Shown one piece after another: positions 2,351 to 16,447 of a DNA stretch of 32,565 nt; within the stretch, counting starts at the first letter, position 1, and the number at the start of each line of letters is the position of its first letter. The notes under the pieces are model-generated. The model did not search any database. It saw nothing but the letters and a program-made list of their open reading frames with translations, and was not told the DNA's origin. The DNA comes from Bacteroidota bacterium (GTDB taxonomy: Bacteria > Bacteroidota > Ignavibacteria > Kryptoniales > JAKASW01), in the NCBI GenBank assembly GCA_021794075.1, contig JAJYRM010000044.1, positions 1 to 32,565 on the forward strand. Direction: 5' to 3'. Both the position numbers and the translations under genes were made by a program.

Positions 2351-2485
2351 GCATAACGTCCATCGGGAAGAAGTCGTTGCGGTCGCCCGCTATAAATGCT
2401 GCGAAGCATCGAGAGCGCGGGCGAACGCAATGAAGCGAGCTCGATTTATTAAAAATGACGAGCGTCTTCTTCCCGATTGTTAGCC
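2351..2485 (-). other. attC: attC recombination site of the lipoprotein cassette
   Basis: The minus strand reads inverse core GGCTAAC (2485-2479), arm TCGGGAAGAAGACGCTCG, a long middle with GCGGGCG-type pairings and the TCGCTTCA motif, then CGACTTCTTCCCGATGGAC and core GTTATGC (2357-2351). The TCGGGAAGAAG and CTTCTTCCCGA arms pair fully. This site uses different cores on its two sides because each belongs to a different cassette. That is what a boundary between two cassettes with different core types should look like. Confidence 0.87.
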
Positions 2486-2538
2486 GACGCGCAACAGTCT
2501 AGATTCGCTTGAGGTTGCATGTACAGCTCTTGCACTAT

Positions 2539-3003
2539 CTATTGAACAGAAAGTTTGAGATTAAATGACATGGATCTCACCGACGCTTCCAAAGAGTACG
2601 AGCCCGATGGGAGTCCTTGACCCGATACGCCTCTCAACACCTGCTTGATACAATAAAAATCAATCCGTTCAGTTTGACCAGGTGCGACTGAGAGGCTCTG
2701 CGCGAGTATGTACCCGTTTCCTCCTTTCATCACGCTGTCACCGCTTGAGTTCACAAGTGCCCATTGGAAAAGACTAGCTTCCACCCCGATTGTGTCAGCG
2801 ACCGAACTGGAGTTGTGCACGGTGATAGCGGCAGTGAGGGTATCTCCGGACTTGTACGTGGTCTTTGGTGTGCTAAAAGTGTACTGAAGTGACCCCGAAC
2901 TCTGAGTGTCGGATGGGCCGACTGGATTACCGCTTTTGCTGCATCCAACTATGAAGATGCTAATTGCGGATATCGCGAGCATAATTGTGATTACCTGTCT
3001 CAT
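2539..3003 (-). CDS. Predicted lipoprotein with BsuPI-like domain, cassette gene
   Basis: A 154-residue protein starting with a lipoprotein signal peptide: basic start, hydrophobic stretch, lipobox IFIVGCS with the acylated Cys at about residue 21. A Ser/Gly/Pro-rich linker follows, then a domain resembling the BsuPI intracellular proteinase inhibitor fold. Seen are TYKSGDTLTAAITVHNSS, the ALVNSSGDSVMKGG segment and a LSVAPGQTERIDF strand, the usual pattern of an immunoglobulin-like beta sandwich. The GGAG at the start is five to six bases from the ATG. The predicted location is a cell-envelope membrane, facing out of the cytoplasm. BsuPI assignments are often only structural, so protease inhibition is not claimed. 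It could equally be a general lipoprotein with a beta-sandwich domain. Confidence 0.75.
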   Translation of the reverse strand: MRQVITIMLAISAISIFIVGCSKSGNPVGPSDTQSSGSLQYTFSTPKTTYKSGDTLTAAITVHNSSSVADTIGVEASLFQWALVNSSGDSVMKGGNGYILAQSLSVAPGQTERIDFYCIKQVLRGVSGQGLPSGSYSLEASVRSMSFNLKLSVQ

Positions 3004-3042
3004 AGGTGTCTCCTTTTTTGTGCTTGACGTAGCCGGTTGTAA

Positions 3043-3315
3043 CTAGGTTGCGTGTCGGCTAACGTTAAGGATTTTATCCGTGCGAGGGACAAAAAATATA
3101 TTGTTACATGGGACGTTCAAAGGCACGGATAAAATTCGGTTGAACGAAGCCGCGTACACCTCGTCGGCCAAGTCTGGCACCATATAATATGGGCATTCAA
3201 TCTTGCTGAGGACTCTTTGAGATGGACCTCCAAGTTCTCCGGTATTACAACACGACAAGTTTATTTTCTTTCTTTCCACGATATCTATTTCCACAGTTAC
3301 CTCGAATTGCATCAT
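3043..3315 (-). CDS. Possible remnant cassette ORF running into attC (uncertain)
   Basis: An open frame of about 90 codons begins at ATG 3315 (or ATG 3312, or GTG 3333) and reads MMQFEVTVEIDIVERKK, then a Cys-containing stretch (SCCNTGELGG and IECPYYM). It then passes through the whole attC at 3145-3057 and stops at 3043. A real cassette gene would normally stop in or before the attC. The upstream side faces the IS91-like element, so this may be the tail of a cassette gene whose front was cut off or displaced by the insertion. I do not recognise the family. It could be spurious. Confidence 0.25.
   Translation of the reverse strand: MMQFEVTVEIDIVERKKINLSCCNTGELGGPSQRVLSKIECPYYMVPDLADEVYAASFNRILSVPLNVPCNNIFFVPRTDKILNVSRHAT
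3057..3145 (-). other. attC: attC recombination site of the IS-invaded cassette (short, divergent type)
   Basis: On the minus strand the inverse core GTTCAAC (3145-3139) fits RYYYAAC exactly. The arm GAATTTTATCCGTGC pairs with GCACGGATAAAATCC, and the site ends in core GTTAGCC (3063-3057). It is only 89 bases long and lacks the GACGCTC and TCGCTTCA motifs of the other four sites, so this cassette probably came from a different source array. The inverse core is the exact complement of the core GTTGAAC at 5590-5584, which lies on the far side of the IS element. Confidence 0.8.
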
Positions 3316-3390
3316 TCTAGTCGGTAAGGGCACACCTATCCCTTGCGACGGATGTCTTTTGATTCTCCTATGTCATTGCCTCTTCATTTA

Positions 3391-4596
3391 TCATGGTGGT
3401 GCATAACTATTACTCATTCCAAAGAAGTAATTTGAGCGTCCTGTCGGCAAAAGCATCCTTTCGCCTGCCATCCTCCCTTTGCGACAACTCGGACACAAAA
3501 GGACATCTATGCCCTTAAACTCTAAAAGCATCTCCTGCCATGTCGCTGTCTCTTCTCGGACTTTTGGTGTTGGCATATCAAGAAGTCTTCTGCACCTGTC
3601 TAATCTCTCCTTCTTCTTTTTGTTGCTGAGTAATCCATAATACCGGATCTTGCACATTCCGTCAGGAAGAATGTGCAGTAAAAAACGCCGTAGGAACTCA
3701 CTCGTCTCAAGGGTCATCACCTTTTCCCTGTCATGGTCTCTGTAATCTCGCCAACGAAAACTTACTTTCCCATCTGCCATCCCTACCAGCCGGTGATTTG
3801 AGATCGCTACTCTGTGCGTGTATCTGCCGAGATAATTAAGAACCTGCTCAGGGCCACCGAACGGTCGCTTGGCATAAACAACCCATTCTTTTTTGTACAG
3901 GCCATCGACTAAGCCCTGAAAGTTTTCCCGGTACTCCAACTCCTTTGCCCTGCCGATACACTTGAGATGTCCTCCGTGATAAACTTTCTTCAACTGTTCC
4001 AGAAACTTCCCTCGAAAAACTCTCGATAGAACTCGAACAGGGATGAAGAAGTTTCCCCTTGACCCAGTCCATCTCGTTCCATCTTCCGAAAGCCCACCTC
4101 CGGTAACGATACAATGCGCATGGGGATGATCCATCAGGTTTTGTCCCCATGTATGCAGAACCATTATCACTCCGACTTCAGCTCCAAGATGCTTCTTGTC
4201 TCGTCCAAGCTTCAACAGTGTCTCGCCTGCAGCCTGGAACAGCAATGTGTATATCTCCCGTTGATTGATTAGCGCCAGTGCGTTCAGATCGTCGGGAAGT
4301 GTGAAGACTATGTGAAAATACTGTATCGGAAGAAGCTCCTCCGTTCGTGCCTTCAGCCATCTCTCTTTTGCCATCGATCCGCACTTCGGACAGTGTCTGT
4401 TGCGGCATGAGTTGTATGAGATACGCTCGTATCCGCATTCCTCGCATCGGTCAACGTGTCCTCCGAGCATCGCCGTTCGACACGACGCTATATCGTGTAA
4501 CGCCCTCAAATGCCGCCGTGGTAGTTTATGTATCCTTACGTACTCCGCTCCGTATCCCCGTACAACATCTGCCACCTCTAACATAGCTGAGCTCAT
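3391..4596 (-). CDS. IS91-family HUH transposase (Y2/Y1 type) with N-terminal zinc finger
   Basis: A 401-residue transposase. Residues about 30-85 form the zinc-binding domain with four CxxC-type pairs (HVDRCEECGYERISYNSC, then RHCPKCGS). The HUH motif is visible as the HPHAHCIVTGGG segment near residue 155. The central region ends with YLGRYTHRVAISNHRL and the VSFRWRDYRD strand, typical of the family, with catalytic tyrosines in and near YLGRY. A C-terminal CPSCRKGRM motif closes the protein. It nicks and joins single DNA strands to drive rolling-circle transposition. The frame is complete with no stops, so it may be active. Its start overlaps the stop of the recombinase gene, suggesting translational coupling. 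Confidence 0.93.
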   Translation of the reverse strand: MSSAMLEVADVVRGYGAEYVRIHKLPRRHLRALHDIASCRTAMLGGHVDRCEECGYERISYNSCRNRHCPKCGSMAKERWLKARTEELLPIQYFHIVFTLPDDLNALALINQREIYTLLFQAAGETLLKLGRDKKHLGAEVGVIMVLHTWGQNLMDHPHAHCIVTGGGLSEDGTRWTGSRGNFFIPVRVLSRVFRGKFLEQLKKVYHGGHLKCIGRAKELEYRENFQGLVDGLYKKEWVVYAKRPFGGPEQVLNYLGRYTHRVAISNHRLVGMADGKVSFRWRDYRDHDREKVMTLETSEFLRRFLLHILPDGMCKIRYYGLLSNKKKKERLDRCRRLLDMPTPKVREETATWQEMLLEFKGIDVLLCPSCRKGRMAGERMLLPTGRSNYFFGMSNSYAPP

Positions 4597-5446
4597 AGTC
4601 TCACCTCCGGCAAAGCAGTCATCAGCCCGTCAAGCGGGTTTACTATTTTCTCTATGCTTGCTCGCTGGAGATGCAGGTAAATGCTTGTCGTCTTGATATT
4701 GGAGTGGCCGAGCAACTGCTGGATTACAAATATATCAGTGCCCGACTCGAGAAGGTGGGTAGCGAAGCTATGACGAAACGAATGAACTGTTACATGCTTG
4801 GTAATACCACTTTTTTTTTCACCTTCGTGAACACAGCCTGTACCGTGCGTTCCGATAGTGGCATCTCCGGGTTACGGCCAGCAAACAACCATGGCTGCGG
4901 ACGGTATATCTTCCAGTACGATCTAAGCTCACTAAGAAACACATTCCCCAGCAGAGTGTAACGATCCTTCTTTCCTTTTCCTTGCTCTACTCGTATCTGC
5001 ATCCTCGCGCTGTCGATGTCCGTTACTTTCAGGTGCACCGCCTCGCTCACTCGCAGACCTGCTGAGTAACACGCCATCATCACCAGACGGTGCTTCGGGT
5101 TCCTCACCCCTTCAAGAAACCGCTTAACCTCTTCTGTCGAAAACACCACCGGTAGCCGCTTCTCTCGCTTCGGATGCGGAATGTTCTCCACTTTCCATTC
5201 ACGCTTCAGTGTGTCCCGATAAAGAAATGTCAGTACGCTGCGTGTCTGTCGGATCGTTGCCCAACCTGCTCCACGTTCCATCAAGCTCTGAAGATATGTC
5301 CGCACCTCTTCTTCTCCCATCTCTCTCGGAGACTTCCCGAACTTGCGTACATACCCTCTCACCACTGAAACGTAGCTCTTGATGGTCTTCGGGCTGAAGT
5401 TCCTCAGCCGCATCGCCATTACCATTTGATCCTGTAGCTCGCCCAT
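4593..5446 (-). pseudogene. IS-associated tyrosine recombinase, split by a shift at an A9 run
   Basis: The first 218 codons (5446-4790) hold the N-terminal core-binding domain and the start of the catalytic domain: SAGLRVSEAVHL (Arg I) and GKGKKDRYTLL (Lys). The frame then runs off after KVKKK at nine adenines (plus-strand T9, 4811-4819) and stops within six codons. Reading on one base back gives SGITKHVTVHSFRHSFATH, LLGHSNIKTTSIYLHLQ and so on, with the HxxR, His and catalytic Tyr. It ends at TGA 4595-4593, overlapping the transposase ATG. With the shift the protein would be about 284 residues and complete. The gene is either broken by one base or expressed by -1 frameshifting or slippage on the A run. 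The ATG at 5446 is preceded by AAGGAG. Confidence 0.85.
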
Positions 5447-5583
5447 AAGTCACTCCTTCGGCTCTTTTGTGTTTACTTCGTGGATTATCTCTCAAAGGTA
5501 CCTTACGGGTACTACTCATACAACATCAAACTTGTCAAAGAACTACTTCTGCTTCTATTCCTGCGCTGCCGCGTAGCGGCTTA

Positions 5584-5705
5584 GTTCAACGTCCTGCGGG
5601 ACAAAGTCGTGGCGCGCATCCACTAAAGGGGTCCCATAATGCGCGCGCCATGAAGCGAGTCCCATCATATACAATAATCGAGCGTCTTTGTACCGCATGT
5701 TAGCC
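5584..5705 (-). other. attC: attC recombination site of the GIY-YIG cassette
   Basis: The minus strand reads inverse core GGCTAAC (5705-5699), arm ATGCGGTACAAAGACGCTCG, a middle with TCGCTTCA and a GGCGCGCGC/GCGCGCC pairing, arm CGACTTTGTCCCGC, and core GTTGAAC (5590-5584), a perfect GTTRRRY match. A 5-bp hairpin (GCCGC-GTA-GCGGC, 5568-5580) lies just beyond, inside the next cassette. The inverse core is the complement of the GTTAGCC at 6253-6247, the start of this cassette. Confidence 0.87.
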
Positions 5706-5735
5706 GCAGCCGCCGCTGGACGGTGAAAGTCGAAG

Positions 5736-6206
5736 TCAACGGTCAAGTCTGTCATCTCTCGATTGCAAATATCTTTCGACATCGTCTCCAAACCGTCCGC
5801 GCTGACGGTTCAAGGGTGGTTCCGCAACTGCGATGAGAATCCCTTCGGTCAAATCCAAAATCTGAGAAAGATTAAGATTCCTGACAGCAGGAATATCAGA
5901 TAATCGATTGTTGTTGGTCACGAATCTGATACCGAACCATGAAAAGGAATCCCACCGACCCGCTAGGTCATCAGTAGTGTGTTGGCGAAGTCGCACGCCA
6001 AGCCTGCTCTGCTCACCTTGGCCTGATTGTCCGACGTAGACTAAGTGGTAATCTGCGTAGAGAGCATAGATTCCAATCTGGTCCCAAAAATCTGTTGGGT
6101 CGTCTCGCCTGGCATCTGAAGGTTTGCCGAGTAGAGAACCAGCGTTGCGCGGACGGCCCGAGAAGACATCGCTCCTTTTCCAGAATAGTCCCATGTTCTT
6201 AATCAT
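5736..6206 (-). CDS. GIY-YIG-like nuclease-domain protein, first cassette of the array
   Basis: A 156-residue protein. After about 45 residues it shows GIYALYADYHLVYVGQSG, which matches the two strands of a GIY-YIG nuclease (YVGQ in place of YIG). LGVRLRQHTTDDLAGRWDSF follows, with the conserved Arg of the first helix. The late TEGILIAVAEPPLNRQ supplies the metal-binding Glu and the PxLN tail common in the family. The domain cuts DNA in a metal-dependent way in homing endonucleases, UvrC and restriction enzymes. Which substrate this one uses is unknown. The ATG follows AGGAG by five bases, and the stop lies 30 bases before the inverse core of its attC. It is nearest to the array head and so, by the integron model, the most recent arrival. 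Confidence 0.82.
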   Translation of the reverse strand: MIKNMGLFWKRSDVFSGRPRNAGSLLGKPSDARRDDPTDFWDQIGIYALYADYHLVYVGQSGQGEQSRLGVRLRQHTTDDLAGRWDSFSWFGIRFVTNNNRLSDIPAVRNLNLSQILDLTEGILIAVAEPPLNRQRGRFGDDVERYLQSRDDRLDR

Positions 6207-6246
6207 AAATGCTCCTCAATTGTGAACTTAAGCATGCGGCGGTTGC

Positions 6247-6282
6247 GGCTAACTCCTTCAAAAACGACATTCGTTTTTGAAG
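6247..6282 (-). other. Head boundary of the cassette array: core GTTAGCC plus 12-bp hairpin (attI-like or truncated attC)
   Basis: On the minus strand a perfect 12-bp stem CTTCAAAAACGA with its complement and a three-base loop (6282-6256) is followed after two bases by GTTAGCC (6253-6247). This core is the exact complement of the inverse core of the first cassette's attC, so it is the insertion junction. The arms resemble the outer arms of an attC, but no inverse core (RYYYAAC) precedes the hairpin. It is therefore not a full attC. It may be an attI-like site or a shortened attC. It starts 25 bases after the stop of the recombinase gene. No run of T follows the stem, so a terminator is less likely. 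Confidence 0.6.
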
Positions 6283-6307
6283 CATATATGGTATAATAGA
6301 CGAACAT

Positions 6308-7216
6308 TTATTTCGTTTTTGTGCCTTTCGGCTGTATGATCCACTCTATCGGACTCCGTATCTGACCGATCTCCTTCTTGCTAACATGCGTGTATATCTC
6401 CGTCGTCCTCACGCTTCGATGGCCTAACAATTCCTGAATGAATTTAATATCCGTCCCTTGTTCGAGCAAATGCGTCGCGAACGCGTGCCTGAGTGAGTGT
6501 ATCGACACGGCCTTGATTATTCCCGCCTTGGCAGCCGCTTTCTCAAATACCCGCTCCGCACTCCTTATAGAATATGGCTTACCCTCCGACTGCCCTTCGA
6601 AAAGCCATTTCTTCGGTCGATACGCGGCCCAATACTCACGCAGCCCTTCCAATACTACTTCCGAAAGTACGGTGTACCTGTCTTTCTTCCCCTTCCCGTC
6701 ATGAACGTGAATCATCATACGGTCGCTGTCGATATCTTCCGGCTTCAACCGCACAACCTCACCCACCCTTAGCCCGGCAGAATATACCAGCATCAGCATT
6801 ATTCTATGCTTCTGATTCCCCAATGACGCAAATATACTCTTTACTTCATTGAGAGAAAGAACGACCGGCAATTTCTGCCCTTTCAACGGACGCGGAATCC
6901 CCGCAATCGCAAAAGGACGCTTGTATAGCTCTACATACAAAAACCTCATCGCGCTGATTACCTGGCTTATCGTGCCTGAAGTAAAATTCCTGTCATGGAT
7001 CAGGTGCAATAGGTAGTCGCGAATCTCCTGCTCGTTCAGCTCTCTCGGATGTCTTGGCGAAATGTACCTCGTGAACTCCAGCAGATGGCTCTTGTATGCC
7101 TTGTAAGTTTTGTTCGAATAATTCCTCAGCCTCATCTCCTCCCTCAATACCGCGAACAGCCCACCCGACCTCGGAAAACTCTTCGCCTCTTCAGACCCTT
7201 TTCTCGTCTCCTCCAT
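6308..7216 (-). CDS. XerC/D-like tyrosine recombinase at the head of the cassette array
   Basis: A 302-residue tyrosine recombinase with all catalytic residues: SAGLRVGEVV (Arg I), GKGKKDRYTVL (Lys), HSLRHAFATH (HxxR), LLGHRSVRTTEIYTHVS (His and nucleophile Tyr). The N-terminal core-binding (SAM-like) domain covers about residues 20-110. Between the Lys motif and the HxxR motif there are only about 55 residues (YRPKKWLFEGQSEGKPYS), so the extra segment that marks IntI integrases is absent. It resembles the integrase in the nearby IS91-like element, sharing the MRLRN segment and the YRP-WLF stretch. It runs in the same direction as the cassettes and ends just before the array junction, the place of an integron integrase. 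A strong GAGGAGG precedes the ATG. It could be a lone relic of another IS91-type element. Confidence 0.9.
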   Translation of the reverse strand: MEETRKGSEEAKSFPRSGGLFAVLREEMRLRNYSNKTYKAYKSHLLEFTRYISPRHPRELNEQEIRDYLLHLIHDRNFTSGTISQVISAMRFLYVELYKRPFAIAGIPRPLKGQKLPVVLSLNEVKSIFASLGNQKHRIMLMLVYSAGLRVGEVVRLKPEDIDSDRMMIHVHDGKGKKDRYTVLSEVVLEGLREYWAAYRPKKWLFEGQSEGKPYSIRSAERVFEKAAAKAGIIKAVSIHSLRHAFATHLLEQGTDIKFIQELLGHRSVRTTEIYTHVSKKEIGQIRSPIEWIIQPKGTKTK

Positions 7217-7361
7217 TGTCTATCCTCCTCTGATTATCTCCGGCAGAATCGCCCTCCGCGCGCCAAAAGCCGGAGCAGTTCCTCATCTTACCTTCAAACT
7301 CTTTTCTATTATCCGGAAAACCGGGGCCGGCATCCCTCGGCCCCGTGTCGTCCATTTCTTC

Positions 7362-8054
7362 TCACTTCGTCGGCTGAGCCGCGGGCTCTTCCAACCGCAC
7401 CTTGTGTCGCTGACCGATGTCCTTTATCACCCGCGCCTCCCAGTACTCGTTGTAAAACTGCGTATCACTCGCTTTGTACACTTCCATCAGGTTGTCGATC
7501 TGGTTCTCGAGTATCCCCATCGCCTCCGCGAAGCTTTCGTACAAACTGGAACGCGCCCCCTTCCGTCGTGCCATGCTGCTCTCGCGCTCCCCTATCGCCC
7601 CCTCGAACGCGTCGATCTTCTCCTTCAGTGAGACCAACTTGGCTTCCGATATCCCGTACTCGCCAACCTCGCCAAGACTCTCGACGCACAGCTCGTGGAT
7701 CGTCCTCGCCCTTGCCACGAGCTCCGTGTCCCTCATGTACCTCAGCTCCGATTCCGTCACTTTCGACTTGCTCGCTATCTCCTGATCACCCACAATGTGT
7801 CCGTACGCGCGAAGCGCCATCGCTATAGGTACCAGCAACCCTAGCAACGCGTCTTCAGCTCCCGCCTTTATGAGCGTCTTCCCTGATGTCGCCGTCATCG
7901 TCTCCCTAACCTTCTCCTTAATCTTCAATGTGACCGCTTCAAGTCTCTCCTGCGCGTTTAGCAGCGCCCCCAATGTCAGCTTCGACTTGTTCCCCGTCAG
8001 GAGCGACGTGACTCCCTCCAGCATTGTCAGCCGGTTTTCATCATCTTTCGTCAT
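7362..8054 (-). CDS. Conserved helical hypothetical protein
   Basis: About 230 residues, soluble, almost wholly alpha-helical by composition, with no signal peptide or membrane segment. Visible stretches include SELRYMRDTELVARARTI, IDAFEGAIGERESSMARRKG and FYNEYWEARVIKDIGQRHK. I recall similar proteins without assigned function from Bacteroidota-type genomes but cannot name a family. The ATG at 8054 is seven bases after AAGGAG; a GTG one codon earlier is possible. It lies 145 bases upstream of the recombinase on the same strand and the coding strand is GC-rich like its surroundings. No function is proposed. Confidence 0.8.
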   Translation of the reverse strand: MTKDDENRLTMLEGVTSLLTGNKSKLTLGALLNAQERLEAVTLKIKEKVRETMTATSGKTLIKAGAEDALLGLLVPIAMALRAYGHIVGDQEIASKSKVTESELRYMRDTELVARARTIHELCVESLGEVGEYGISEAKLVSLKEKIDAFEGAIGERESSMARRKGARSSLYESFAEAMGILENQIDNLMEVYKASDTQFYNEYWEARVIKDIGQRHKVRLEEPAAQPTK

Positions 8055-8872
8055 CACAATTCTCCTTTAATGACTGGTTAACTTATCAGTTAAGGGGACT
8101 CCAAACCGTTTCCCGCAAGCCCCTCCTGCGGCGGCAATCTATCTGAATACCGGATCTTTTCTCCAAAGCGTCATCCTTCAATACCCGGGAAATTGCCATT
8201 ATGGCACGACGTACCAACACCCGGATCCGGGCACCTTCCATCCGGTCACGCACACCTTTCTTCCGGACAGACTGTCCTTCCATCCGGGAATCCCAACCCG
8301 ACATTATGTCCCGATAAGATGTCATTATGGCACACCCATCCCTTATTATTCTTACCGAACTTCTTATCCGGACAATCGAACTTATCGCGGGCGTGACAGC
8401 AAACATCGTCCCGAAAGATGGAAATATATTCCATATAATCTCACTTGCCATTATGGCACGCCTGAACGGCATTATTCCAACCGACAAACCATAGCGCAGA
8501 CCGCATCGCTTCATCCAGATGCGCCGGGCCCCTCTTCGACGCCCTCCATCGGAATCACTCGCGAACCCGGCTAGCGTTCTCTCAGCCCATCCGGGCATTA
8601 ATCGTTTAGGTTTGTCCTCTGGTCCGGCCGGGCTGGTCTCTCTTCGCCGGCCTTCCGTCTATCACTATCCGGCAGATTCAATTCGTCTGCCTTCTCCTTC
8701 CGAAAATCCGTCCCGCCTCTCAGAATTGTGAAGCAACCCGCCTAGGTAGCCCGGACATTCGGATTATCGGGGATGATTCTAAGTCCATCCCTTGTTCTAT
8801 CGACGCTCGTCTCGAATCTACAACTTCCTCGACGCGGATTCAATATGATACTTCACTTCAGGACCTCTCCCG
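8055..8872. repeat. Unassigned stretch with four spaced CATTATG palindromes
   Basis: No convincing gene is seen in about 800 bases. Four 11-base near-palindromes occur: GCCATTATGGC (8195-8205), GACATTATGTC (8300-8310), GTCATTATGGC (8321-8331) and GCCATTATGGC (8447-8457). Copies one and four share 16 bases, TTGCCATTATGGCACG. Copies one, three and four are exactly 126 bases apart. Many short TCCGG/CCGGA runs fill the rest, notably at 8220-8300. A 170-codon minus-strand frame (8598-8086) covers the area, with the palindromes reading as repeated (A/D)IM(A/S/T). Its Arg-rich composition and overlap with open frames on the other strand argue against a real protein. It could hold repeated protein-binding sites or an RNA. 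Confidence 0.45.
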
Positions 8873-11800
8873 TCACTTCCCTGAAAGTACCGCGCCGACG
8901 ACCTTCAGCACCTCCGCCGTCTTGTAAGGTTTCTGAATGAAATGACTGACTCCGATCTTTTCCAATTCATCCTTAACCTCGGGGGCGATGAATCCGCTCG
9001 CCACTATTACATTCACCATTCCTGAGACTTTCTTAATGCGCCTGACCACTTCCTCGCCGCCCACTTTCGGAAGGCCGAGGTCCGAAAGGACCAGGTCGAT
9101 CCGCTCTTTGTTGGCAATGAATGTCGCGACCCCTTCTTCGCCGTCTGCCGCCAAAATTACCTTGTGCCCTTCCAGGGTCAGCACCGATCTAAGAAGGTCC
9201 CTCAGCATCTCCTCGTCTTCGATCACGAGTATGTTTCCAGCCTCCGCCCGATCGGAACTTGACGCGTGGGAACGGGGAGGCGCATCTTCGATTCGCTGCT
9301 TCACGACCGGGAAGTAAATCGTGAATGCGGTTCCCTTGCCCGGCTCGCTTTGCACGTCGATGAACCCTTTATGGCTTTCGACTATCCCGTAAACAACGGA
9401 TAGTCCGAGTCCCGTCCCCTTTCCGACTCCCTTAGTCGTGAAGAACGGCTCGAATATTTTCTGCCTCACATCTTCGTCCATGCCGCTCCCGCTGTCGGAA
9501 ACGCGGAGCTCGACATATTTTTCAGATGTCGCTCCCTGATGGGACCTCCTAAGAGTGGAGCCGGAAACCAGCCCAGTGGCAATCGAAAGTATCCCTCCCC
9601 TCGGCATGGCGTCTCGCGCATTCAGACAAATGTTCAGCAGGATCTGGTGGATCTGGGTCGTGTTTGCCATTACGGGAGGTATCGCCGGATCGAGATCTGT
9701 CCGGATTTCGATCGTCTTTGGAAACGTTTCGTCCATGAGCCTCTGCATTTCCACGATGGTGTCGTTAATGATCACCGGATTGAAGGTGACATCTGTTTTC
9801 CGGGCAAAAGTCAAAAGCTGCTGAACGAGAGACTTTCCTCGATCGGCAGATTTCGATATAGCCAGCATCCCGCGCCGGAACTTCTCCCTGTCGTACTCGG
9901 ATTGGCCGAGAAGATCCGAATATCCGAGTATCACCCCGAGTATGTTATTGAAATCGTGGGCGATCCCCGCCGCGATGTTGCCTAACCCTTCAAGCTTCTG
10001 AGTCTGGATAAACTGACGTTCCAGCGTCCTAATCTCCGTAATGTCCTTCGCCATTCCTGAAATGACGTCTCTGTCCAGCGACGCGTTGATAAGGACATTG
10101 CGCACCTTTCCTGTTTTTGTCCTCAACTCAACTTCCCTGTTCTGGTCCGTTTTGCCGAAAGTCCGCAGCTCGTCAGTAAGACCCGCGCTATCCTCCAGGT
10201 CCCTGTACAGTGACGAGAAACTGACGGACATCAGCTCCTGCGGAGAATCGTACTCCAGCATGTCCGACATCGCCTTGTTGACATAGATGATGGTCCCGCT
10301 GAGATTCACCTTGTACACTCCGACAAGGGCGTTCTCGACAAGTTCCCTGTACTTCTTCTCGGAGTCGCTAATCTCCTTCTCCATCTTCTTATGCTCGCTC
10401 GTGTCGCGCGCGACCCAGAGAACGCTGCTCTCATTCATTGGAGAGACCGTCGCCGACCGCCAGCGCTCCTCTCCTCCGATGACCATCGTGTATTCCAGAG
10501 CGTGAGTCTTACCCGTCCGGAGGGTTTCCCTGACGACGCCTAAGAACTGGCTCGCCTGTTCGTCCGGTAGAATGTCGAAAAATGTCCTCCCGATCATTTC
10601 ATCGGCCGGTCTGTATAAAAGCGATTCATCTGTCGGGGCAATGTTGACATACCTTCCGTCCGAATCTATCGCCATGACGATATCGTGCATCGCTTCGAAG
10701 AGGGCGCGAAGTTCCGCTTCGGAACGCTTCAGCGCCTCATCCACGACGCGCTTCTCCGTGACATCAAACCCGACTCCTACCAGCCCGTTGACCGATCCGT
10801 CGCTCCCGCGCAAAGGTACCTTGGTCGTCAGAACCCAGTGTTCCTTTCCGTTCACATCGGCAAGACATTCTTCTTTGGCAATTATCGATTCGCCGTTCTC
10901 TATCACTCTCCGGTCGTCTTCGAAGTATCTCTCCGCGATTTCCTTTGGATAGACTTCAAAGTCCGTCTTGCCGAAAATCTCTTCTTCCGACGAAAGTCTG
11001 CCGAACTGCTGGACGTCGACAGGATTCGCTATGACTTTCCTATAATTCCTGTCCTTGACATAAATGGCGTGCGGGATGTTGTCGATGAGCGTCCTTAAGA
11101 GCACCCGCTCCTTTTCTATTTCTTCCTCCGCTAGCTTTCTTTCAGTAATATCCCTCAGCACGCCGTCGATCCGTACAAGTCGTCCCCCTTCATAAACCGG
11201 GACCGAATTGTCTTCCATGAACCGGCGGGAGCCGTCTTTGCACTTCCACCATTGCTCCCAGACAGGGGCGTGATCCGTCTCTTCAGTCTGCATTTCATTC
11301 ATCACAGGATCCGGATCGGTCGGGCTGTCCCCTTCGATCACTGAAAGGAGGAAAGGCCACCTCCCTCCCTTCCGTTTTATGTCATCCATCGAATAGCCGA
11401 GAATCTTCTCGAAGGCCGGACTGATATATTCGAATTCACCGGTCTTCCCGTTTACACTATAAATGATATCGCTAATTGAGCCCGATATCCTGGCCAGGAT
11501 ATCCTGAGATGATCTGAGCTCCTTCTGTACGCGCTTCTGTTCGGTAATCTCGGTGGTGATCCCCACCAGCCCGGCAATCTTGCCGCTCTCGTCCCGGATC
11601 GGTATCTTCGAAACCAGCTCCCATATCTCGTGCCCGTCCGGATCGATCGAATGTTCCTCCCTGTTCAATATCGAGATCCCGTCCCGAACCACTTCCTCGT
11701 CTTCCCGCGTGAATGCCTCCGCCCTGCTCGCCGGATAAACTTCCGCGTCGGTCTTCCCTATGATCTCCGATTCCGACCCGATCTTTCTCCCCACCGAAAG

Positions 11801-14548: not shown

Positions 14549-15043
14549 ATGAAAAGATATATTTCAATCGCGCTAGTCCTTACCGCATTTTGGGCTACCA
14601 ATTCTTTTGCCCAGGTCTCAGGCACCGCGACAGCTACCGTCAACCTCACCGTAAACGCCCAGGTGACCGTGACAACGGTGCGTGACCTCAATTTCCCTTC
14701 TCATGTTCAGGACTCAACCGCGGCTGCAGTCAATCCCAATTCCGACGGGACCGAGGCGGCATATCTAATTTTGCAGACCTCGGCGAATCATTCCTGCTCA
14801 GTCTCCTACACGAACACTCCGATGACCTTTACAACTGGAAGTATCAGCTGGACCCCTTCACTTGTGGGAGCTACCACTTCTACAAATCAGACCTCCGCTA
14901 CTTCCGTGTCGAGCGGCTCAAACGTGACAACCAGCGGTACAGGTTACTACTACTTCTGGGTTGGCGGCACGACCGCGCCGATTACGAACACCCTCCCTGC
15001 GGGAGCTTACCAGGGCACGTTCGACCTGACTGTGACTTACTGA
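14549..15043 (+). CDS. Secreted DUF4402-like protein, paralog 1
   Basis: A 164-residue protein with a signal peptide (MKRYISIALVLTAFWATNSFAQ, cleavage after about residue 21). A beta-rich domain follows with the DUF4402 pattern: TATVNLTVNAQVTVTTVRDLNF at its start, a central NPNSDGTEAAYLIL, then YYYFWVGGT and the closing GAYQGTFDLTVTY. Members of this family are exported and resemble pilin or adhesin-type beta sandwiches; their function is mostly unknown. It is the first of three such genes in tandem. The ATG follows a GGAG by seven bases. No chaperone, usher or sortase gene lies nearby, so assembly into a pilus is not supported here. Confidence 0.8.
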   Translation: MKRYISIALVLTAFWATNSFAQVSGTATATVNLTVNAQVTVTTVRDLNFPSHVQDSTAAAVNPNSDGTEAAYLILQTSANHSCSVSYTNTPMTFTTGSISWTPSLVGATTSTNQTSATSVSSGSNVTTSGTGYYYFWVGGTTAPITNTLPAGAYQGTFDLTVTY

Positions 15044-15147
15044 AGCGCTTCGAGGCCGATAAAACAGCTTCTTTACGGGAATGCAAATCGGTCACGAGAT
15101 ATCCCCAGTACTTGCTTGACTCCCACTGATATCTGATATTGGTAACG

Positions 15148-15675
15148 ATGGAGAAAGTCAATCCACCGTTCCGTTTGAATATAGAGAGTGGTATCGTAAG
15201 ACAGACGCTAATCGCCGCGTTCCTCATCCTTAGCATGTCAAACGCTGCCGCCCAGACAACCACGGCATTCGTTTCGGCGAACATAGTAATAAAAGGCCTC
15301 GTTTCGCTATCGACCGTTCGAAATCTCGATCTCGGGACAGTGGAACAGGGAATCACCCAGGTTGATGTGAACCCGATAACAGGAGGGGGCTCGGCGGCAT
15401 ACTTCACATTCGCTTCCTCGCCACACACTCCGATTATAGTGACTTACGCTTCCGACAAATTAATATCCGCGGGCAATTCGATAGCGTTCTCCGGCAAACT
15501 TGCGGGAAGTTCCTCCAGAGTTCAGACTCACGCCGTCCTCATCAACAACGGGACCGGCCTCGTCACAAACTCAAAAGGTAGATACCATTTCTGGGTAGGC
15601 GGCTCGGCAAAACTCTCCGCTGATCAGCCTCTTGGAGTCTATACCGGCGATTTCACAATGACTATCGCCTACTGA
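15148..15675 (+). CDS. Secreted DUF4402-like protein, paralog 2
   Basis: About 175 residues. A basic leader of about 20 residues precedes the hydrophobic TLIAAFLILSMSNAAAQ signal segment. The mature part repeats the family pattern: SANIVIKGLVSLSTVRNLDLG, DVNPITGGGSAAYFTF, then YHFWVGGSAKL and the ending GVYTGDFTMTIAY. The ATG at 15148 is chosen over an upstream TTG (15139); neither has a strong ribosome binding site. It lies about 100 bases after paralog 1 in the same direction and is likely co-transcribed. It is clearly related to paralog 1 but well diverged, so the duplication is old. Confidence 0.78.
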   Translation: MEKVNPPFRLNIESGIVRQTLIAAFLILSMSNAAAQTTTAFVSANIVIKGLVSLSTVRNLDLGTVEQGITQVDVNPITGGGSAAYFTFASSPHTPIIVTYASDKLISAGNSIAFSGKLAGSSSRVQTHAVLINNGTGLVTNSKGRYHFWVGGSAKLSADQPLGVYTGDFTMTIAY

Positions 15676-15934
15676 GCTCGACGCCGGAACCCATTTCCGC
15701 CGACCAGACTGCTCCCCCCAAAAAGGAACACCGATCAATGCGATAGAGCTGAATCACTCCAGATCTGTTTCATAGGAACTTTTCTGATTTTGCGCCTGAA
15801 TCGATTTGTTGACGGCGCACACACATCGCCTCCCAAGCTTGACTTTGTTAAGGGCGCGAGCTAAAATCGTACCAGGACGTTGCATCGGCAGTGACAGCGT
15901 CTGCTTGATTCCATCTTGGGTATTCAAAGGAGCA

Positions 15935-16447
15935 ATGGTGCAGCGAGTCGTGGTAGTAGGATTTCTGGCATTTTTTGGGATTTCAGCCGGGATGCCGGGC
16001 ATTTGCGCAGCGCAGTCAAACGCGAACACATCGCTCAGTGTAACAATTCAAATTGTGCAGGCAACAGCCGTGACCGCTTTCGACGGTATGCTGTTTGAAA
16101 ATTTCACCATTGCTGACGGGCTCCGGCAAAGTACGCACTCCAAGCAAGACAGTGGATTTCTCACCATCAACGGGCAACCCAGATCGCGAATAAGCGTTTC
16201 TATTCCGCCGATGGTTGTGCTTCACAGCGCCGCTGGTAGACCCATCGCGCTTTCGTCCGATATCACCGTTTGGAGCTCCGGCGATTCTGTAAGGGGAAGG
16301 AAACGCTCTTTCCCTTCCACTACCGGCGGGACGGCCTCGTTCGGTTCAAACGGGCTGCTCCGCTTTCACTTGGGAGGCTCCCTTCACACGGACTACACAT
16401 CCGCGGGATCATATAGCGGCAAGTATGTCATAACTCTCACATACTAA
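15935..16447 (+). CDS. Secreted DUF4402-like protein, paralog 3
   Basis: About 170 residues from ATG 15935. An in-frame GTG at 15938 fits the AAGGAG at 15928-15933 with more usual spacing, so either may be used. The signal peptide reads VVVVGFLAFFGISAGMPGICAAQ. The mature part is the most diverged of the three but keeps the ends of the fold: NTSLSVTIQIVQATAVTAFDG near its start, and LLRFHLGGSLHTDY with SAGSYSGKYVITLTY at its end. An upstream extension of the frame to 15806 is not favoured because it would bury the signal peptide. It is spaced about 260 bases from paralog 2, so it may have its own promoter. Confidence 0.72.
   Translation: MVQRVVVVGFLAFFGISAGMPGICAAQSNANTSLSVTIQIVQATAVTAFDGMLFENFTIADGLRQSTHSKQDSGFLTINGQPRSRISVSIPPMVVLHSAAGRPIALSSDITVWSSGDSVRGRKRSFPSTTGGTASFGSNGLLRFHLGGSLHTDYTSAGSYSGKYVITLTY

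Follow-up and report, generated by a model that had tools for sequence, protein, structure and literature searches.

The gene at positions 6308–7216 (minus strand) of the window, that is, the whole 32,565-nucleotide stretch of DNA analyzed here, which is the entire contig C70 of a draft Bacteroidota genome (4.53 Mb in 240 contigs, 99.8% complete), appears to encode the functional integrase of a sedentary integron in the chromosome, a reading to which we assign a probability of roughly 0.8. This integrase would belong to a family without the I2 helix, and would act on folded attC sites that have no bulge. The integrase and the attC site differ from their classical counterparts in matching ways, with no I2 in the former and no extrahelical base in the latter, and these differences match because I2 is the part of the enzyme that docks the extrahelical base of the attC (PMC7790495).

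The product of the gene is a tyrosine recombinase of 302 amino acids, in which a domain search found PF00589 and an N-terminal SAM-like domain, and it is encoded by the first gene of the array, transcribed into the array. The catalytic residues R150, K175, H240, R243, H266, and Y275 are all present, and are invariant or nearly so across the alignment. The original prediction had placed a tyrosine recombinase other than IntI in the position of the integrase, with the full catalytic set and the same direction as the cassettes, and all of this stands. The distance of 25 bases given there between the stop codon and the head of the array has to be corrected to 55 bp, as measured to the GTT of the first junction (6253–6251).

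The extra segment between the catalytic Lys and the HxxR motif, where IntI carries its I2 domain, is absent, as had also been anticipated. The interval from residue 194 to residue 209 contains 16 residues in 54 of the 64 I2-less proteins, 18 in nine, and 26 in one, whereas it contains 47 in all 34 of the sampled IntI, including IntI1 and a cyanobacterial representative, and the two groups never overlap. In comparison with the IntI of the same class, IntI1, and the cyanobacterial IntI, the window integrase lacks 31 residues at the position of the I2 helix, and its phmmer alignment with VchIntIA (2A3V) is divided into two stretches, which leave residues 183–248 of the 2A3V chain unmatched. The AlphaFold model (pLDDT of 86.5), based on an input of 44 sequences from the window and the loci, passes from a helix at 186–199 through a loop to a helix at 217–230, with no I2 helix, and the closest folds in the PDB are VchIntIA (2A3V), followed by XerA.

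The best-scoring NCBIfam model is TIGR02249, the “integron integrase”, with 223.6 bits, below its cut-off of 265, in a match interrupted around the I2 gap. This best score might be expected of an ordinary IntI that had recently lost its I2 in a single lineage, but such an origin is very improbable, given that the gap is common to the whole of a wide family and that the IntI are monophyletic (100/100), with the exclusion of the clade of the window, even when the insert columns are masked. The 33 integrases of the window kind form a clade (89.9/89), and the integrases that accompany IS91 elements form another (98.7/99), which is its sister, with an SH-aLRT of 86.7 and a UFBoot of 95 for the joint node, in agreement with the predicted likeness to the IS91-associated integrases. 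The comparison of a single clade of I2-less integrases with a paraphyletic stem of IntI gave a p-AU of 0.227, and the I2 helix may either never have been present in this family, or have been lost from it.

Downstream from the integrase, the architecture is that of an integron, with a recombinase gene at the head of the cassettes, each gene followed by an attC, an attI with a G^TT insertion point adjoining the recombinase gene, and folded attC stems with their boxes and an unpaired central spacer, although the stem has no extrahelical base. The stop codon of the integrase is followed on its 3' side by 55 bp that include a 25-bp palindrome (6257–6281), then by GTTAGCC, and then by the array. This attI-like region (6251–6307, minus strand), with its putative G^TT insertion point (AAC on the plus strand, 6251–6253), is similar in sequence in three other genomes of the genus (G009, G002, and G011) as far as the GTT, with different cassettes beyond it. 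The palindrome is not a universal feature of the attI, since a test for it was positive in just eight of 33 loci, compared with five of 330 shuffles.

All the cassettes and attC sites of the window are on the minus strand. Cassette 1 (5591–6253) contains an open reading frame at 5736–6206, which is GIY-YIG-like by eye only and has no Pfam match, and it ends in attC 1 (5584–5705; 35.1 bits), a stem without a bulge and with spacers of one and four nucleotides. Cassette 2 (3064–5590) harbors an IS91-family element, with a transposase at 3391–4596 and a frameshifted tyrosine recombinase at about 4620–5446, while its attC 2 (3057–3145) is short (89 nt), with spacers of three and seven. Cassette 3 (2358–3063), with attC 3 (2351–2485), an attC-like hairpin, has an open reading frame at 2539–3003 for a putative lipoprotein with a weak Arrestin_C-like match; cassette 4 (1270–2357), with attC 4 (1263–1378; 45.8 bits), has one at 1395–2303 for an Mrr-type restriction endonuclease; and cassette 5 (122–1269), with attC 5 (115–248; 42.8 bits), has one at 292–1212 for a member of the M23 peptidase family. 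Cassette 6 (1–121) is incomplete, and runs off the end of the contig. The five attC-like sites compare with zero to four (mean of about 1.7) in shuffled 32-kb windows at the same threshold, the same finder detected no further attC-like sites in the other 26 kb of the window, and an Rfam search of the window returned no match. The sequence type of attC 2 is unlike that of the other four sites, as if its cassette had originated in another lineage. The recombinase of the IS91 element has its frameshift near 4800, and groups with the IS91-partner integrases of proteobacterial plasmids. Unrelated to the integron, three neighboring small proteins of secreted appearance, possibly paralogous, are encoded at 14549–16447 on the plus strand.

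The absence of the extrahelical base is a property of these arrays in general. In the I2-less arrays, 71 of the 81 downstream sites have no bulge, with the spacers in the expected order, whereas 24 of the 31 sites in the IntI arrays of the same class have a single unpaired base in the L'' arm after 5–7 bp. A bulge in this position of the L'' arm is found in one of the 81 sites of the I2-less arrays versus 24 of 31 (Fisher p = 3.5e-17, with sites of the same locus not being independent), and, counted by locus, in all seven IntI loci versus none of the 18 I2-less loci with at least two sites (p of about 2e-6). These counts were obtained with a finder that handles both forms equally, save for a small penalty on the bulge; the initial finder permitted no bulge. 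In one I2-less array (L096), a classical-looking bulged attC was observed at +1939 from the integrase, possibly in a cassette acquired from a classical integron.

In all 52 sites that could be placed in register, a lone A makes up the 5' spacer, while the 3' spacer consists of four bases, nearly always NNAC. A stem of twelve pairs follows, with all four types of pair at most positions, and then a mismatch of one base on each side, usually an A facing an A or a G. The L stems of these 52 sites are 94–100% paired, a value to which their selection, made partly on pairing, contributes. For this reason, the pairing was tested separately on 40 sites selected solely on a sequence motif, in which 10.15 of the 12 positions were paired, as against 6.1 ± 0.27 with swapped partners, and covariation reached 0.578 against 0.164 (0 of 500 shuffles; 36 cores). 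A covariance model, R1, produced 29 matches in the I2-less loci and none in the IntI or Xer loci, and recovered three of the five attC sites of the window. As a scan of whole genomes, R1 was rejected, given its excess of first-look candidates, and the whole-genome counts of attC presented below rest on a DNA pattern used in its place.

This anatomy also bears on whether the recombinase might act on double-stranded DNA, in the manner of Xer or of the IS91 partners, with the hairpins serving some other role, such as termination or stability. The nearest named relatives are indeed the recombinases of IS91 elements, and the attI palindrome at some loci resembles a core site with two arms, but this mode of action is unlikely, given that the sequence of the L box is free to vary while its pairing is conserved, a combination that fits the recognition of shape rather than sequence. 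In addition, R'' and R' conserve only the AAC/GTT core that is common to attC sites, and the asymmetry of the spacers is constant.

The integrase would most likely bind the R and L boxes of the attC folded as a single-stranded hairpin, and would cut the R' box at G^TT, joining the cassette to a double-stranded attI located just 3' of the integrase gene. As both I2 and the extrahelical base are absent, the choice of strand must have another source, and the VCR without extrahelical bases is still polarized, with a strand selectivity provided by the central spacer (Bouvier et al., PMC2727003). Together with the constant asymmetry of one and four nucleotides, this result makes the unpaired central spacer the likeliest means of strand choice here, and it would probably also block the second strand exchange, while the conserved mismatch some 12 bp further in may perhaps aid in the choice. 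The activity of the integrase, its single-stranded substrate, and the role of the spacer in strand choice are inferred, and the requirement of I2 for the capture of cassettes by the classical IntI (PMC7790495) counts against the model of an I2-less integrase.

Relatives of the integrase, with 46–88% identity, are found in other genomes of the Bacteroidota/Ignavibacteriota, as recovered from a search of the class and named contigs, and they repeatedly head attC arrays. In the flanks of 40 of these relatives, any array present lies 3' of the gene and shares its orientation, with a junction at G^TT that resembles an attI, and there are 81 attC-like sites in the orientation of the array in 149 kb downstream (0.54 per kb), versus 16 in 328 kb upstream (0.049 per kb), which is approximately the level expected by chance. 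At least two downstream attC-like sites are present at 18 loci, and many of the remaining loci have the edge of the contig directly past the attI-like junction. In G007, the integrase and its array lie within a contig of 513 kb, which makes an assembly artifact unlikely. The survey proposed in the original prediction found genes of this family linked to attC arrays repeatedly, in many genomes. I2-less relatives in the wider sense occur in 69 of 297 Bacteroidota genomes (E up to 1e-60), and attI-like ends are present in the examples from Flavobacterium, Pedobacter, and Chryseobacterium; a search of a viral collection recovered relatives of 36–44% identity only. On a plasmid of Chryseobacterium sp. 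SNU WT5 (L314), three near-identical attC-like sites of approximately 149 bp are located at 6927, 9022, and 11403, downstream from an I2-less integrase, and their stem apparently continues from the AAC/GTT without a central spacer.

The cassettes appear to have moved between arrays. Cassette 6 of the window and the first cassette of G010:C37 (L099) are 87.5% identical over 120 bp, starting from the G of the GTT, while the bases upstream are alike at four of 25 positions, with an attC preceding the cassette in the window and an attI in G010:C37. Two arrays of G002 have a common cassette with 98.3% identity and a breakpoint that is again at the GTT, and a third pair of cassettes is identical over 34 bases from the GTT onward. 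Homologous cassettes in different arrays, with GTT breakpoints, represent comparative evidence of recombination between attI and attC. The 5' flank of the window integrase is syntenic with that of G009 (protein identity of 72–85%), yet the first cassettes differ, as would be expected in a sedentary integron. In L197 and L199 (G025 and G053), a common cassette starting with GTTGGGCGCAATTAAATGG was seen by eye, with the same next junction and different neighbors.

The cassettes might, alternatively, be moved by a classical I2-bearing IntI encoded elsewhere or recently lost, with the gene at the head of the array being a bystander or relic. Clusters of attC without an integrase (CALINs) are common (PMC9024848), and two genus-mates, G002 and G003 (L091, L126, L130, L131, and L140), have I2-bearing IntI in addition to I2-less integrons. 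All the genomes are drafts, which may miss genes, and the possibility of an IntI in an assembly gap also counts against the interpretation of the head gene as the working integrase. This alternative is nevertheless improbable, given that the head genes have the same position and direction in many genomes and mostly intact reading frames, and that their sites are without the base that is docked by the I2 of IntI. In addition, the whole-genome search for IntI suggested in the original prediction recovered none above the family cut-off in the 99.8%-complete draft of the host, nor in G004, G005, G007, G009, G010, or G011, every one of which has arrays. The prediction had left two cases, an intI that was lost or distant, or cassettes handled by a recombinase of an unusual kind, and it is the second that gains support from the absence of IntI and the repeated linkage to arrays. 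In G003, the sites of the I2-less and I2-bearing kinds differ in the expected way.

In the genus, the strict attC motif has 3–25 matches in each of the nine genomes in which the integrase gene is intact, two and four in G006 and G012, which have fragments only, and zero and one in G008 and G001, which have no copy. The reversed pattern, used as a control, had one match over all 13 genomes. The genome of the window has 16 strict matches and none of the reversed pattern, and 12 motif matches lie outside the window, on the contigs C182, C184, and C236, none of which yielded a recombinase.

The I2 has been described as conferring single-strand recombination and as being absent from all other proteins (PMC7790495), and integron surveys use it to define IntI (PMC2426708, PMC9668308). 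Widespread I2-less integrases at the heads of arrays, with attC sites that lack the base held by I2, challenge this definition, and would explain some of the “integrase-less” arrays. The window array would be classed as a CALIN by tools that require the IntI-specific domain (PMC9024848, PMC9668308), although, unlike a CALIN, it is headed by a dedicated recombinase. In the open-access literature, with subscription papers mostly outside the search, no published account was found in which an integron integrase without I2 is described together with attC sites. It is conceivable, if rather doubtful, that these integrons represent an earlier or a parallel type, which recombined folded, single-stranded cassettes when the matched pair of I2 and extrahelical base had not yet arisen; if so, single-strand recombination would not have originated with I2, but would have been refined by it. 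A natural pair of enzyme and site makes the origin of integrons directly testable, the joint absence of the helix and the base offers a natural experiment in the selection of one hairpin strand by a recombinase, and the genomes with both kinds of integrase (G002 and G003) offer a natural test of cross-talk.

The classical integron (VchIntIA with the VCR, or IntI1) has in common with the window array the position of the integrase at its head, the attI, the R'', L'', L', and R' boxes of the attC with their AAC/GTT core, the asymmetric central spacer, the mobile cassettes, and the G^TT junction. It differs in the I2 of its integrase, where the window integrase has none, in the extrahelical base of its attC, where the stems of the I2-less arrays have none, and in the direction of the integrase gene, which points away from the array, rather than into it. 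The partner recombinases of the IS91 family, which form the sister clade and have the same length at the I2 position, precede an IS91 transposase, whereas the genes of the window type precede an attC array. The array-head genes were rejected as leftovers of IS91 elements, given that no IS91 transposase was found adjoining them in the loci examined; the window has a single such transposase, at a distance of 1.7 kb, inside cassette 2 and with a recombinase of its own.

The nearest published relatives are the rAID arrays of the Bacteroidales, reportedly first described by Ross et al. in 2019. Their tyrosine recombinase also lacks I2 and comes from the same broader family, and it likewise heads a co-oriented array of genes, with conserved intergenic motifs (PMC12247911); the rAID-type recombinase of a Bacteroides ovatus plasmid, which heads an immunity array, is 44.7% identical to the window integrase, with 16 residues at the I2 position. 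The “new kind of cassette system” proposed in the original prediction is somewhat too strong a description, given that the system is an integron by architecture, and that I2-less relatives were already known to head the rAID arrays. The cargo of the rAID is made up of orphan immunity genes of the T6SS, whereas that of the window, judged on the domain content of its cassettes, is mixed, with an Mrr nuclease, an M23 peptidase, and unknowns. The B. ovatus plasmid (L315) has short intergenic hairpins at 5816–10451, which are attC-like, with variable paired arms around AAC..GTT, and which have a different layout from the window sites, with their full attC layout.
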